Of a stretch of 33,120 nucleotides of DNA, positions 13,320 to 17,961 are shown piece by piece; position 1 is the stretch's first letter; every line of letters starts with the position of its first letter. The stretch covers positions 1-33,120 of the forward strand of contig JANXVA010000078.1 in NCBI GenBank assembly GCA_025351875.1, in the 5' to 3' direction. The translations under genes were made by a program, and so were the position numbers. The notes under the pieces were generated by a model. The model was not told where the DNA came from and made no database searches. It was given only the letters and a program-made list of their open reading frames with translations. The DNA is from Myxococcales bacterium (GTDB taxonomy: Bacteria; Myxococcota_A; Polyangia; Polyangiales; Polyangiaceae).

Positions 13320-14828
13320 TCACTCGGCCGGGCAGGACGTCTTGGTCGGTGGCTTCGACGGGTCGAGGAGGAACTGCGTGACGACGTCACGAACACACGA
13401 GCTGTGGAGCGCCGCCGCGTGGCCGTCGCCCTCGTACGTGAGGACACTCGAGCCGTTTCCGAGCTGACTCACCAGCTCCGCGCCCTGCGCATATCCGGTG
13501 ATCGGATCGAACCGGCCGGAGATCACGAGAGCCTTTGGTGCCGCAGCCGCGTTCACTGCCACACGCGCGCCCGAACGCGCGTGCGGCCACCCCGCGCAGA
13601 GCGCCCAAGGGAGGAGCGCCGCCACTCCTCGTGGGTGCGCGACTCGCTGCGCTGCGGCGAAGGTCTGGAACGCATCGACCGTAGGCACGGCGCTGAACGG
13701 CTGATCGAGACACGCGATCGCGAGAAGCCCCAGCACCGTCGTGTCGTAGTGGGCGTCGGCGGTGCGACCCATCAAGGCGTCGGCTCCGACGAGGAGCTTC
13801 GTGGCGTCACCGGCCTCTGCCGCCGCGAGCTCGGAGGCGAGCCCACGCCAGTCCGCCGTGCGAAGACCGTCGGCGAGCGCGAAGTGCAGATCGACGAGCG
13901 ACAGCCTGCGCGCGCCCGCGGCGAGCCCGCCCTCGGTCTTCGCCTTCGCCACGAGCGTATCGAGCCGCTGGCCGACGGCCGCGGGATCTGCGCTGGTTGC
14001 TCCCGTCCCCCGCAGCGCGCAGGCGGCGTCGCGCGCGCAGGCCTCGAAGAATCTCGCGAAGCCGAGCTCGTAGCTCGCGCCCTGCTCGGCGATGTCGCCC
14101 TCGAGATCCCGAGCCAGCACCGTCGCCGAATCGAGCGCGAAGGCACGAACGCGGTCGGGAAAGAGCGTCGCGTAGGTCGCGCCGAGCCAGGTGCCGTACG
14201 AGAAGCCGAGGTAGTTCAGCTTCTCCTCGCCGAGCGCCTCGCGGATCCGGTCGAGATCGCGCGCCGCGTTCTCGGTGTTCATCGTGCGGAGCACGCGTGC
14301 GTCGGCCTTTGCGAGGCAGCCTCCGAGCAACGCGGTGCGAAGCTCGGTCACCGCCTGGAGGGAGCCGGGCGTCTCGAGCGTGAGATCGGTGCTGCGGAGT
14401 CGCTCGAAGAGCGCGTCGTCGCTGCAAGCGATGGGTGCGCTGCGCCCGATGCCGCGCCAGTCGAACGTGACGACGTCGAACCTCGTGGTCGCCTCGGAGA
14501 AAGCTGCGCTCAGGACGGGATACGTCGTGGCGAGCCGCTCGACGAACGCCTGCCCGGGGCCGCCCGGATTGACGACCACCGCACCGAGCCGCGCGGCGGG
14601 GTCCTTCGCCGGCGCTCGCAAAAGGGCGATCGAGATCTTCGCGCCCCCGGGGTCGGCGTAGTCGACAGGCACGTCGACCGTCGCGCACTCGTAGTCGCCC
14701 TCGCAAGGCGTGAAGGTGACTCGCTTGCTCGTTGCGCCGCCGTCCGAAGATCCGCAGGCCGCTCCGAGCACGGCGGACGCCATGATCGCCAGCACTGCAC
14801 CCCTCGCGCCGCGGCTTGCCCTCGTCAT
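13320..14828 (-). CDS. Secreted TAP-like alpha/beta hydrolase (tripeptidyl aminopeptidase family), lipoprotein
   Basis: 502 residues. The lipoprotein signal ends in LGAACGSS (Cys25). VVNPGGPGQAFVE forms the oxyanion region and FDVVTFDWRGIGRS the next strand. The nucleophile elbow is YLGFSYGTWLG (Ser210). Near the C terminus ALVISGRFDPITGYAQG carries the acid Asp, and TYEGDGHAAALHSSC carries the catalytic His. This is the layout of the SlpD/SlpE/TAP-type secreted aminopeptidases (S33-like with a TAP C-terminal domain), which clip short peptides from N termini; the substrate here is not known. The ATG is 1 nt after the stop of the NarL-type regulator, so the two are almost certainly co-transcribed. 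This ties an exported peptidase to the two-component system. Confidence 0.88.
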   Translation of the reverse strand: MTRASRGARGAVLAIMASAVLGAACGSSDGGATSKRVTFTPCEGDYECATVDVPVDYADPGGAKISIALLRAPAKDPAARLGAVVVNPGGPGQAFVERLATTYPVLSAAFSEATTRFDVVTFDWRGIGRSAPIACSDDALFERLRSTDLTLETPGSLQAVTELRTALLGGCLAKADARVLRTMNTENAARDLDRIREALGEEKLNYLGFSYGTWLGATYATLFPDRVRAFALDSATVLARDLEGDIAEQGASYELGFARFFEACARDAACALRGTGATSADPAAVGQRLDTLVAKAKTEGGLAAGARRLSLVDLHFALADGLRTADWRGLASELAAAEAGDATKLLVGADALMGRTADAHYDTTVLGLLAIACLDQPFSAVPTVDAFQTFAAAQRVAHPRGVAALLPWALCAGWPHARSGARVAVNAAAAPKALVISGRFDPITGYAQGAELVSQLGNGSSVLTYEGDGHAAALHSSCVRDVVTQFLLDPSKPPTKTSCPAE

Positions 14829-14829
14829 G

Positions 14830-15492
14830 TCACGCGAGACGGTACGCGGTCGTGACCGCTTCGGCCTTCGAGCAGACGTGGAGCTTCCGGTACATCGCCC
14901 GCACGTGATGGCGGACGGTGTTGACGCTCATCGAGAGCATGCGCGCCACATCTTCGTAGGTCGCGCCCTTCGCGAAGAGCTCGATGATCTCGCGCTCGCG
15001 ATCGGTGAGATCGGAGGCATCGGGCGAGCCGTCGTGCGCGGCCACCACACCGGCGCTCGGGGTCGGAGCGAGTCCGCGACCCCTGAAATCGTCGAGCAGT
15101 CTCCGCGCGATGGTCGGCGAGATCGGCGCGCCGCCATCTCGCAGGATCGCGAGCGACTCCGCCACGCGCGTCGCCGCGTCACCCTTCAGCAGGTACCCCG
15201 AGGCGCCCGCCGCGAGAGCCTTGTAGACGTTGTCGTCGTCGTCCCAGACGGTGAGGATGAGGACGGCCATCTGCTTCTCGACGGCGAGCTGGATGAGCGG
15301 GATCGAGCTGCCGTCCGAGAGCTGCAGATCGAAGACACCGATCGTTGCGCCCGAGCTCTCGATCGCCTTCTTGCCGGAGACCACGTCTCCAGCCTGCGCG
15401 ACGACCGTGAAAGCGCCGTCGCTTTCGATCTGCCGCACGACCCCCCGCCGGATCATGGGGTCGTCTTCGAGCACGAGAACCGCGTCCGTCAC
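14830..15492 (-). CDS. NarL/LuxR-family response regulator
   Basis: 220 residues from the GTG at 15492; the track adds 12 unlikely residues. The receiver has Glu9-Asp10-Asp11, phosphoacceptor Asp55 in IGVFDLQLSDG, Thr81 and Lys103 (LLKGD). The C-terminal LuxR-type helix-turn-helix is clear: LTDREREIIELFAKGATYED, then VARMLSMSVNTVRHHVRAMYRKL. It should bind DNA as a dimer after phosphorylation. It is divergent from a kinase whose last module is a HisKA_3-type (NarX/DesK class) transmitter, the class that normally pairs with NarL-type regulators. The downstream gene, 1 nt away, is the TAP-like peptidase. There is no ribosome binding site, but TATACT lies 8 nt before the GTG, suggesting a leaderless mRNA. 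Confidence 0.93.
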   Translation of the reverse strand: MTDAVLVLEDDPMIRRGVVRQIESDGAFTVVAQAGDVVSGKKAIESSGATIGVFDLQLSDGSSIPLIQLAVEKQMAVLILTVWDDDDNVYKALAAGASGYLLKGDAATRVAESLAILRDGGAPISPTIARRLLDDFRGRGLAPTPSAGVVAAHDGSPDASDLTDREREIIELFAKGATYEDVARMLSMSVNTVRHHVRAMYRKLHVCSKAEAVTTAYRLA

Positions 15493-15500
15493 AGGTCCGA

Positions 15501-15528
15501 AGTATACTGTGGCCTCAGGCCATCGCAA
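15501..15528. promoter_or_regulatory. Divergent promoter with palindromes between regulator and kinase genes
   Basis: AGTATACT (15501-15508) is palindromic and supplies TATACT on both strands. On the minus strand TTGCGA (15528-15523), a 16-nt spacer and TATACT form a good housekeeping-type promoter for the regulator gene, with the GTG 8 nt downstream. The spacer contains the perfect dyad TGGCCT-C-AGGCCA (15510-15522), well placed for an operator. For the kinase, TATACT lies about 50 nt upstream of its GTG. Confidence 0.55.
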
Positions 15529-15558
15529 TCGTCAGAGTCCGGAAATCGTGGGTAAATC

Positions 15559-17961
15559 GTGACGAAAACAGGCGGTGAGGCGCCCGCGCACACCTCGCTC
15601 GATCCCCAGGAGCGCTTCGAGCGAGCGTTCGAGATCGAGCGCGGAGAGACCATCCAGACGCGTTCGCGCTGGATCTGGGGCGGCTCGCTCACGATGTTCT
15701 TCGTCAGCCTCGTTTTCATCGACCGGGCGGTCTTCACGTGGGGGCAGGCGCTGACCATCCGCGTGCCCGAGCTGGCGCTCGCCATCACCATGCTCGTCTA
15801 CCTGCGGAAGCCCCGCCCGCGGGTCCAGATCGAGCGCTGGACGACGCTCGGCTGGACCCTCATGGCGGTCCTCAGCAGCTGGGGCTTCACGGTGGTTCCT
15901 CACGAGAAGCTGCCGGCCAAGGTGGCCGCGCTCACGCTCTCGGTGATCGTCGTCTGCCTCCTCGGTGCGTTCACCTGGCAGACGTCGTTCCTCATCGCGC
16001 TGATCACGATGCTCTCGCTCTCGTCCCTGCTCTACGTGGGCGCGAACTCGCTCTACATGCTCACGATGACGGTGGTCGGCTTCGCGTGGGGCGTCATCAT
16101 CGTCTCTGCGGCGGCCCGCGATCGGCTGAAGCGCAAGGAGCTCGTCGCCCGCCTCGGTCTCATCGAGGCGAACGAGAAGCTCCAGCGCGAGGACGAGCTG
16201 AAGAGGCGCCTCTTCGTGAACCTGAGCCATGATCTGCGGACGCCGCTCGCGATCGTCCGCGGCGAGGCGGCGATGCTGCGTGGCTCCGGGCGCATGGATG
16301 ACGACGACGCCGCGCTCGCGCGCGTCGAGCGCAACGCCGCGGCGCTCTCCCAGCTCGCAGACCAGCTGCTCGACCTCGCGCGCCTCGAGGCAGGCCAGAT
16401 GCCCGTTCGCGCACGCGCGTGCGATGTCGGCCAGATGGTTCGCGACGTCGCATCGCAGCTCACGCCGCCCGGCGAGCCGCGCATCCACACGAAGACCGAA
16501 GGCGAGCGCGTCGTCAGCCGGGTCGACCCGACACACCTCCAGCGCATCCTGACGAACCTCGTCGCGAACGCGCTCCGTCAGGCAAAGCCTGGTGGAGAGC
16601 CCGGGCTCGTCACGCTCTTCGTCCGAAGTGAGAAGGCAACCAACCACGTCGTCCTCGACGTCGTCGACGAGGGCCCAGGCGTACCGCCCGAGCGCCGCGT
16701 GGCGATCTTCACGCGCTTCGTCTCGTTCGACTCCGACGGCAACACGGCGTCCGGGATCGGTCTCCCGCTCGCGCGCGAGCTGGCGATGCTGAACGCGGGG
16801 ACGCTCGAGCTGCTCCATGACGTCCGGCCGACGACGTTTCGCCTGACGCTGCCCGCCACGTCGGACGAGCCGGATGCGATCGAGCCCGAGCTCGCCGCCG
16901 CTCTCGCGCCTGCGCCGACTCGCGAGGCTCGCCACGCGCCGCCTTCGACGCTTGCTCCCGGATCGCGCCCTCGGCGCCGGATCCTGGTCGTCGAGGACAA
17001 TCCGGACATGGGCCTTCTGCTGGTGCGTTCGCTCGGCAGCGCGTATCGGGTCGAGCACGTCACGCGCGTGGCCGACGCGCTCGCGGTGCTCGCCGAGGAC
17101 CCGCCCACCGCCGTCCTCTCGGACGTCATGCTCCCCGACGGGACCGGCTACGAGGTCCTCGCTGCGATTCGCGGCCGTCGCGATCTCGATCGGATGCCCG
17201 TCGTGCTGGTCTCCGCGCTCGGCGAGGTGGACGAGCGCGTGCGAGGTCTCTCGGCAGGCGCCGACGACTACGTCGCGAAGCCGTTCGCCCCTGAGGAGCT
17301 GCGCAGCCGCGTCAACGCGGCGATCGACCGCGCCGACACGTGGGGACAGGCGCTCGCAGCGCAGCGAGACGTCCTCCTGATGGAGGTCCACGACGGCGTG
17401 AGCGCGAGCCTGTCGCGTGCATCGATCCTGCTCTCCGATCTCGAGCCGCACCTCTCCCCCGAGACGGTGGCTCACGCGCGCGACGCGATCCGTGACGGGC
17501 TCGACGAGGTGCGCGCCATCACGCGTCTGCTCGCGCCGAAGCCAGCTTCGTTCCTCGCGCTGACCGCGGAGATCCGTCGCGCGATGGGCGACGCATGCGC
17601 CGCCGCCAAGCTCGAGCTCGACTTCGACGTGCAGAGCAGCGCCGACCTCGATGGCGCCACCGTGCCCGCCGGCACGGCTCACACGATGAGGCGCGTCGCG
17701 CGCGAGGCCACGACCAACACCATCAAGCACGCGAATGCGAAGCGGGTCGCCTGCCACGTGTCCGCGACGACGGAGTCGTTCGTCATGCGCATCCAGGACG
17801 ACGGTCGCGGGCTCCCGGAGGAGCGATCGGACGGGCAGGGACTTGGCATCATGAGCCGTCGTGTCGGACGCGTCGGCGGCACCGTGGAGCACGGAAATCG
17901 CGCGAGAGACGCGGGCGGCGGGGCGTACGTCGAGGTGCGCTTGCCCAGGCTCTCGCGCTGA
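15559..17961 (+). CDS. Membrane double histidine kinase: HisKA-HATPase-receiver-HisKA_3-HATPase
   Basis: 800 residues. The N terminus has about six membrane helices (roughly 40-184) with little periplasmic sequence. Module 1 is a classical kinase: LFVNLSHDLRTPLAIV (His224), N box NLVANALR, G1 DEGPGVP, G2 SGIGLPLA. A receiver follows (about 474-590) with VVEDN, Asp522 in LSDVMLPDG and Lys574 (AKPF). Module 2 is a NarX/DesK-type transmitter: LLMEVHDGVSASLSRAS (His611), EATTNTIKHA, DDGRGLP and GQGLGIMSRR. Module 2 is the type that phosphorylates NarL-type regulators, and such a regulator is encoded divergently. An internal relay from module 1 to the receiver, gating module 2, is inferred. The start is GTG 15559 with only a weak ribosome site. 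The C terminus is complete and no module shows frameshift damage. Confidence 0.93.
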   Translation: MTKTGGEAPAHTSLDPQERFERAFEIERGETIQTRSRWIWGGSLTMFFVSLVFIDRAVFTWGQALTIRVPELALAITMLVYLRKPRPRVQIERWTTLGWTLMAVLSSWGFTVVPHEKLPAKVAALTLSVIVVCLLGAFTWQTSFLIALITMLSLSSLLYVGANSLYMLTMTVVGFAWGVIIVSAAARDRLKRKELVARLGLIEANEKLQREDELKRRLFVNLSHDLRTPLAIVRGEAAMLRGSGRMDDDDAALARVERNAAALSQLADQLLDLARLEAGQMPVRARACDVGQMVRDVASQLTPPGEPRIHTKTEGERVVSRVDPTHLQRILTNLVANALRQAKPGGEPGLVTLFVRSEKATNHVVLDVVDEGPGVPPERRVAIFTRFVSFDSDGNTASGIGLPLARELAMLNAGTLELLHDVRPTTFRLTLPATSDEPDAIEPELAAALAPAPTREARHAPPSTLAPGSRPRRRILVVEDNPDMGLLLVRSLGSAYRVEHVTRVADALAVLAEDPPTAVLSDVMLPDGTGYEVLAAIRGRRDLDRMPVVLVSALGEVDERVRGLSAGADDYVAKPFAPEELRSRVNAAIDRADTWGQALAAQRDVLLMEVHDGVSASLSRASILLSDLEPHLSPETVAHARDAIRDGLDEVRAITRLLAPKPASFLALTAEIRRAMGDACAAAKLELDFDVQSSADLDGATVPAGTAHTMRRVAREATTNTIKHANAKRVACHVSATTESFVMRIQDDGRGLPEERSDGQGLGIMSRRVGRVGGTVEHGNRARDAGGGAYVEVRLPRLSR

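Follow-up and report, generated by a model that had tools for sequence, protein, structure and literature searches.

A symmetric −10 element as the probable shared promoter of a divergent hybrid kinase gene and a putatively leaderless regulator operon in a Labilithrix-like myxobacterium

The DNA considered here (hereafter the window) is a stretch of 33,120 nucleotides of contig JANXVA010000078.1 from a Myxococcales bacterium (assembly GCA_025351875.1), a Labilithrix-like myxobacterium by comparison with the named contigs of its relatives. Within it, a gap of 66 nt (15493-15558) separates a minus-strand response-regulator gene, which is followed by a hydrolase gene, from a plus-strand hybrid histidine kinase gene, and this gap contains the palindrome AGTATACT. 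From our sequence and comparative analyses, we consider it likely that AGTATACT is one symmetric −10 element that starts transcription both ways, with a leaderless mRNA for the regulator and the hydrolase. RNA polymerase would use the palindrome as a single −10 in both orientations. Leftward transcription would start some 7 nt past the box, at or no more than 2 nt from the GTG start codon of the regulator, thus yielding a leaderless regulator/TAP-hydrolase mRNA, and rightward transcription would serve the divergent kinase. In four of five relatives both mRNAs would begin at, or nearly at, their start codons, the intergenic gap being little more than the −10 (21-28 nt). The lineage of the window would have lost the close kinase start, and its kinase now begins 50 nt downstream, behind a predicted leader of 44 nt.

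The plus strand reads AGTATACTGTGGCCTCAGGCCA at 15501-15522 and continues with TCGCAA. This bears out the letters reported by an earlier sequence-only reading, which had described TTGCGA-N16-TATACT on the minus strand, with the dyad TGGCCT-C-AGGCCA in the spacer, as a promoter for the regulator/peptidase operon. AGTATACT reads as TATACT on either strand, the near-symmetric −10 that characterizes bidirectional promoters. In our promoter scan the minus-strand site was the sole sigma-70-like match in 2 kb, matching at 9 of 12 positions where 0.1 such sites are expected in shuffled sequence. The palindrome is also rare, with two copies in the genome of 8.93 Mb; here and below, genome-wide counts come from pattern searches of genomes that are largely metagenome assemblies in many contigs, and start codons are predictions. 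The likeliest regulator start, GTG 15492, lies 8 nt past the −10, within the range by which leaderless genes are recognized (TANNNT ending 5-10 nt before the start codon), and therefore a leaderless mRNA is implied. An alternative start at TTG 15528 was rejected, as it would place the entire promoter within the gene and GTG 15492 agrees with the orthologs. Canonical spacing predicts divergent transcription starts 21 bp apart. No match to an RNA element was obtained in an Rfam search of 15300-15700, and a scan of the region found no terminator. The positions of all features are given in Table 1.

Table 1. Predicted elements and genes at the divergent locus, in window coordinates
Feature	Position	Strand	Basis or remark
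AGTATACT, palindromic −10 common to both directions	15501..15508	both	minus hexamer 15506-15501, plus hexamer 15503-15508
TTGCGA, candidate −35 of the regulator promoter	15523..15528	−	promoter scan; 16-nt spacer to TATACT
TGGCCTCAGGCCA, perfect 6-1-6 dyad	15510..15522	both	single genome copy, not conserved, probably incidental
Predicted transcription start, regulator operon	15492..15494	−	from −10 spacing; at or ≤2 nt from GTG
Predicted transcription start toward kinase	15515	+	from canonical spacing to plus-strand hexamer; leader of about 44 nt
Response regulator, receiver domain and LuxR/NarL-type helix-turn-helix, GTG start	14830..15492	−	domain search, ortholog alignment
TAP-like alpha/beta hydrolase (the peptidase of the sequence-only reading)	13320..14828	−	starts 1 nt past regulator stop, operon
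Divergent hybrid histidine kinase, HisKA-HATPase-REC, then weak HisKA_3 and HATPase, GTG start	15559..17961	+	

Support for the shared element comes from the orthologous loci. A search of 184 genomes of the order (E below 1e-50) returned six close members, the window among them, and a single distant member, and the contig collection yielded no further close locus. The five other genomes carry clear regulator orthologs with 67-70% identity, at the loci L037 (genome G004), L038 (G049), L039 (G116), L040 (G007) and L041 (G003). The box is kept in all five, with the regulator start 6-7 nt from a TANNNT box in each, which further supports the promoter assignment of the sequence-only reading. The divergent kinase is present in four of the five, and in every one of these a TATA box lies between the two start codons, which are 21 nt (L039), 22 nt (L038), 27 nt (L037) and 28 nt (L041) apart; the kinase start is 7, 8, 10 and 11 nt, respectively, from the plus-strand box. 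With their starts so closely placed around one box, both mRNAs of these four relatives should be leaderless or nearly so. L037, L038 and L039 have no alternative usable kinase start nearby, and L041 has a later ATG as an alternative. The earlier proposal that a symmetric −10 is common to the divergent genes is strengthened by these loci, and by the recurrence of AGTATACT in this role elsewhere. The short form of the gap is probably ancestral, because it is found in all four kinase-bearing relatives, which cover three genera and two families.

Other parts of the promoter region are less widely shared. TTGCGA is present in L038 as well and absent from the other relatives. The sequence TTCCACCAC in L037, L040 and L041 was considered as a shared −35 or an operator half-site and dismissed, since it proved to be the kinase start GTGGTGGAA in reverse complement. 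G007 has lost the kinase and the hydrolase and retains the regulator and the box, along with what is left of the kinase start, GTGGTGGAAG. Here the box thus persists for the sake of the regulator only, in a position that also suits the kinase where one is present. This locus (G007:C154, 3185-4633) is a natural deletion, with an orphan regulator and its box standing by themselves and the flanking genes of the relatives kept. The regulator-hydrolase gene order is the same in L037, L038 and L041.

The two-sided arrangement recurs outside this gene family. The second genomic copy of AGTATACT (C543:1327, loci L054/L124) likewise separates two divergent genes; it has a GTG 6 nt away on one side and the ATG of a GST-like protein 10 nt away on the other. 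Across the 184 genomes there are 379 copies of AGTATACT versus 766 of the control palindrome TCATATGA, in which the letters of AGTATACT are reversed. Distinct AGTATACT sites flanked by CAY and RTG at 5-10 nt on both sides number 36, compared with 8 at 16-21 nt. Among the loci fetched, both flanking codons opened a coding frame (85 codons or more, starting at that codon and coding-like in third position) in 17 of 30 for AGTATACT, in 2 of 27 for TCATATGA and in none of 8 at the wide spacing (Fisher p = 4e-7 for the number of both-coding sites per palindrome, and p = 3e-5 when the two spacings are contrasted, both treating sites as independent). Because the same gene pair can account for several of the 17 double-coding sites (L112/L113/L114; L122/L124; L121/L125 look alike), perhaps a dozen cases are independent. 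A gap of 6 nt, which places the start codon at the canonical +1, is the most frequent (14 of 34 sides). A relaxed motif, ANTATANT, gave 15 sites in the genus versus none with the reversed pattern, and in 400 kb of G003 TANNNT was enriched about 3-fold at 12-17 nt upstream of candidate starts (26 versus about 8 expected from farther positions), with no such enrichment of its mirror. On these counts we lean, by a modest degree, towards the view that RTG-N6-AGTATACT-N6-RTG and its close variants form a recurring minimal divergon in the order: about 20 bp that would give two leaderless mRNAs without a ribosome-binding site and leave no room for a conventional operator, would serve unrelated gene pairs, and could drift to a one-sided, leadered form.

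Individual cases illustrate the range of contexts. L112, L113 and L114 (G070, G071 and G023), from three species of one genus, share an uncharacterised pair of genes whose starts lie exactly 6 nt to each side of AGTATACT and which, in L112, has no Pfam match. In L173, L177 and L182 (G009, G002 and G000:C431), a symmetric box lies between a NUDIX hydrolase gene and its small divergent neighbour; the boxes differ in each of the three genomes (AATATAAT, ACTATACT) and the neighbour in L182 has a weak VanZ-like match. A few assemblies that look lower in GC or are larger, G056 and G063 among them, carry 16-23 copies of AGTATACT without the two-sided arrangement of start codons.

Several observations weigh against a shared −10 with leaderless output on both sides. 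The window itself has the leaderless arrangement on one side only: the kinase start, 50 nt from the box, falls outside the 5-10 nt range, because an in-frame TAA at 15553-15555 forces the start to GTG 15559 and rules out one nearer the box. The plus-strand TATACT has no recognisable −35 (CCGCGT at 15480-15485), and this, together with the distant kinase start, means that the case for rightward use in the window rests on the relatives. Among these, the kinases of L037 and L041 would have leaders of 4-5 nt rather than zero, and the exact palindrome occurs only in the window and G116, the TATA box of the other relatives differing in sequence. The raw count for TCATATGA (27 genomes) is near that for AGTATACT, even though TCATATGA is twice as common, and the contrast between the two is clear only once coding frames are required. 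The counted sites, moreover, lack independence, since the genomes that hold them are related. The missing plus-strand −35 and the 50-nt distance would also fit a box that is a one-way promoter for the regulator, the kinase being served by another, unrecognised promoter and the short gaps of the relatives reflecting compact packing; so would the retention of the box without a kinase in G007. We regard this as unlikely, since four relatives have their kinase start at 7-11 nt from the box, this spacing is enriched order-wide on both sides of AGTATACT, and gaps of 21-28 nt would push any other kinase promoter into the regulator gene. We attach almost no credence to coincidence, that is, to AGTATACT and its promoter-like spacing having no promoter role. 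Although the scan detects consensus matches only, and high-GC bacteria may have poorly recognisable promoters, AGTATACT is rare, a box is conserved in five loci at 67-70% regulator identity, and the spacing-specific enrichment holds against the controls.

The sequence-only reading had further suggested that the dyad is an operator at which the response regulator or another repressor, bound in the promoter spacer, would block its own operon, and had named a lack of dyad conservation in orthologous loci as the result that would speak against this. The suggestion has some appeal, as regulators frequently act on their own promoters and the dyad falls squarely within the 16-nt spacer. Proximity to a promoter does not by default make a palindrome an operator, however, and the dyad alone is only mildly unusual: shuffling the same stretch yields such a dyad in 0.8-1% of cases, or about 2% if loops of up to 5 are allowed, and the window of 33 kb has 26 perfect 6-1-6 dyads. 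The genome-wide search that had been proposed returned one exact copy in 8.93 Mb, with no regulon of further copies, and the exact dyad was dismissed as a regulon motif. With up to 2 mismatches there are three matches in the window, a number reached in 7 of 100 shuffles and not clearly above chance. TACYYMT is the NarL-type heptamer consensus; on reading the sequence we found no such heptamer in the dyad, as an inverted repeat or otherwise. The dyad is absent from all five orthologous loci and was therefore rejected as a conserved operator. In an alignment of the window with L038, CATCGCAAYCG is common to both and GCGCATGGGCATCGC of L038, which includes the kinase start ATG, stands opposite CTCAGGCCATCGC of the window; the right arm of the dyad therefore occupies the position of the L038 kinase start codon. 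Taken together, these results make autoregulation through the dyad very unlikely. A lineage-specific or single-site operator at this position is formally possible on the sequence, and autoregulation through a site other than the dyad is possible.

In the kinase, two kinase modules flank a receiver, HisKA-HATPase on one side and a NarX/DesK-like HisKA_3-HATPase on the other, the HisKA_3 match scoring under the curated cut-off. Such a layout points to an internal relay towards the NarL-type regulator. Right after the plus-strand −10, a short plus-strand frame (15509-15562) has its terminal TGA overlapping the GTG of the kinase (GTGA); it may be left over from an earlier N-terminus of the kinase, serve as a coupling leader or be a chance frame.

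If the proposed use of AGTATACT is correct, a −10 box alone would fix the transcription and translation start of two genes, and the kinase and regulator of one pathway would be expressed jointly from one polymerase-binding site, a coupling of dosage that a fragment of about 25 bp would suffice to test. The locus also cautions that it is easy to mis-annotate start codons in these genomes. Escherichia coli and Salmonella are known to have bidirectional promoters built on a shared symmetric −10, as summarised from Warman et al. 2021 in PMC12825309 and PMC10268837, the latter defining them by divergent starts that flank a common −10 and lie 7-25 bp from each other. The promoter described here resembles them in its near-symmetric −10 and its predicted distance of 21 bp, and differs in that both directions enter annotated-like coding frames with start codons at the predicted transcription starts; it would thus be a leaderless variant of the known bidirectional promoter. 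Leaderless genes with TANNNT beside the start codon have been reported for 8 of 33 delta-Proteobacteria genomes (Zheng et al. 2011, PMC3160421) and, with TANNNT as the −10, are also established in Deinococcus-Thermus (PMC12340547). As here, TANNNT lies about 12 nt upstream of the start codon with no room for a ribosome-binding site, but these papers treat one gene per promoter, whereas here one box would serve two divergent genes. No example of one −10 serving two leaderless genes emerged from the open-access full text searched, outside which most subscription papers lie, and the novelty of the combination is provisional. The nearest case is lysG-lysE of Mycobacterium tuberculosis (PMC5648196), likewise a divergent pair whose promoters overlap and whose transcripts include one that is leaderless; its gap, however, is 108 bp, it contains a true regulator-bound inverted repeat, and its leaderless transcript comes from a separate second promoter.
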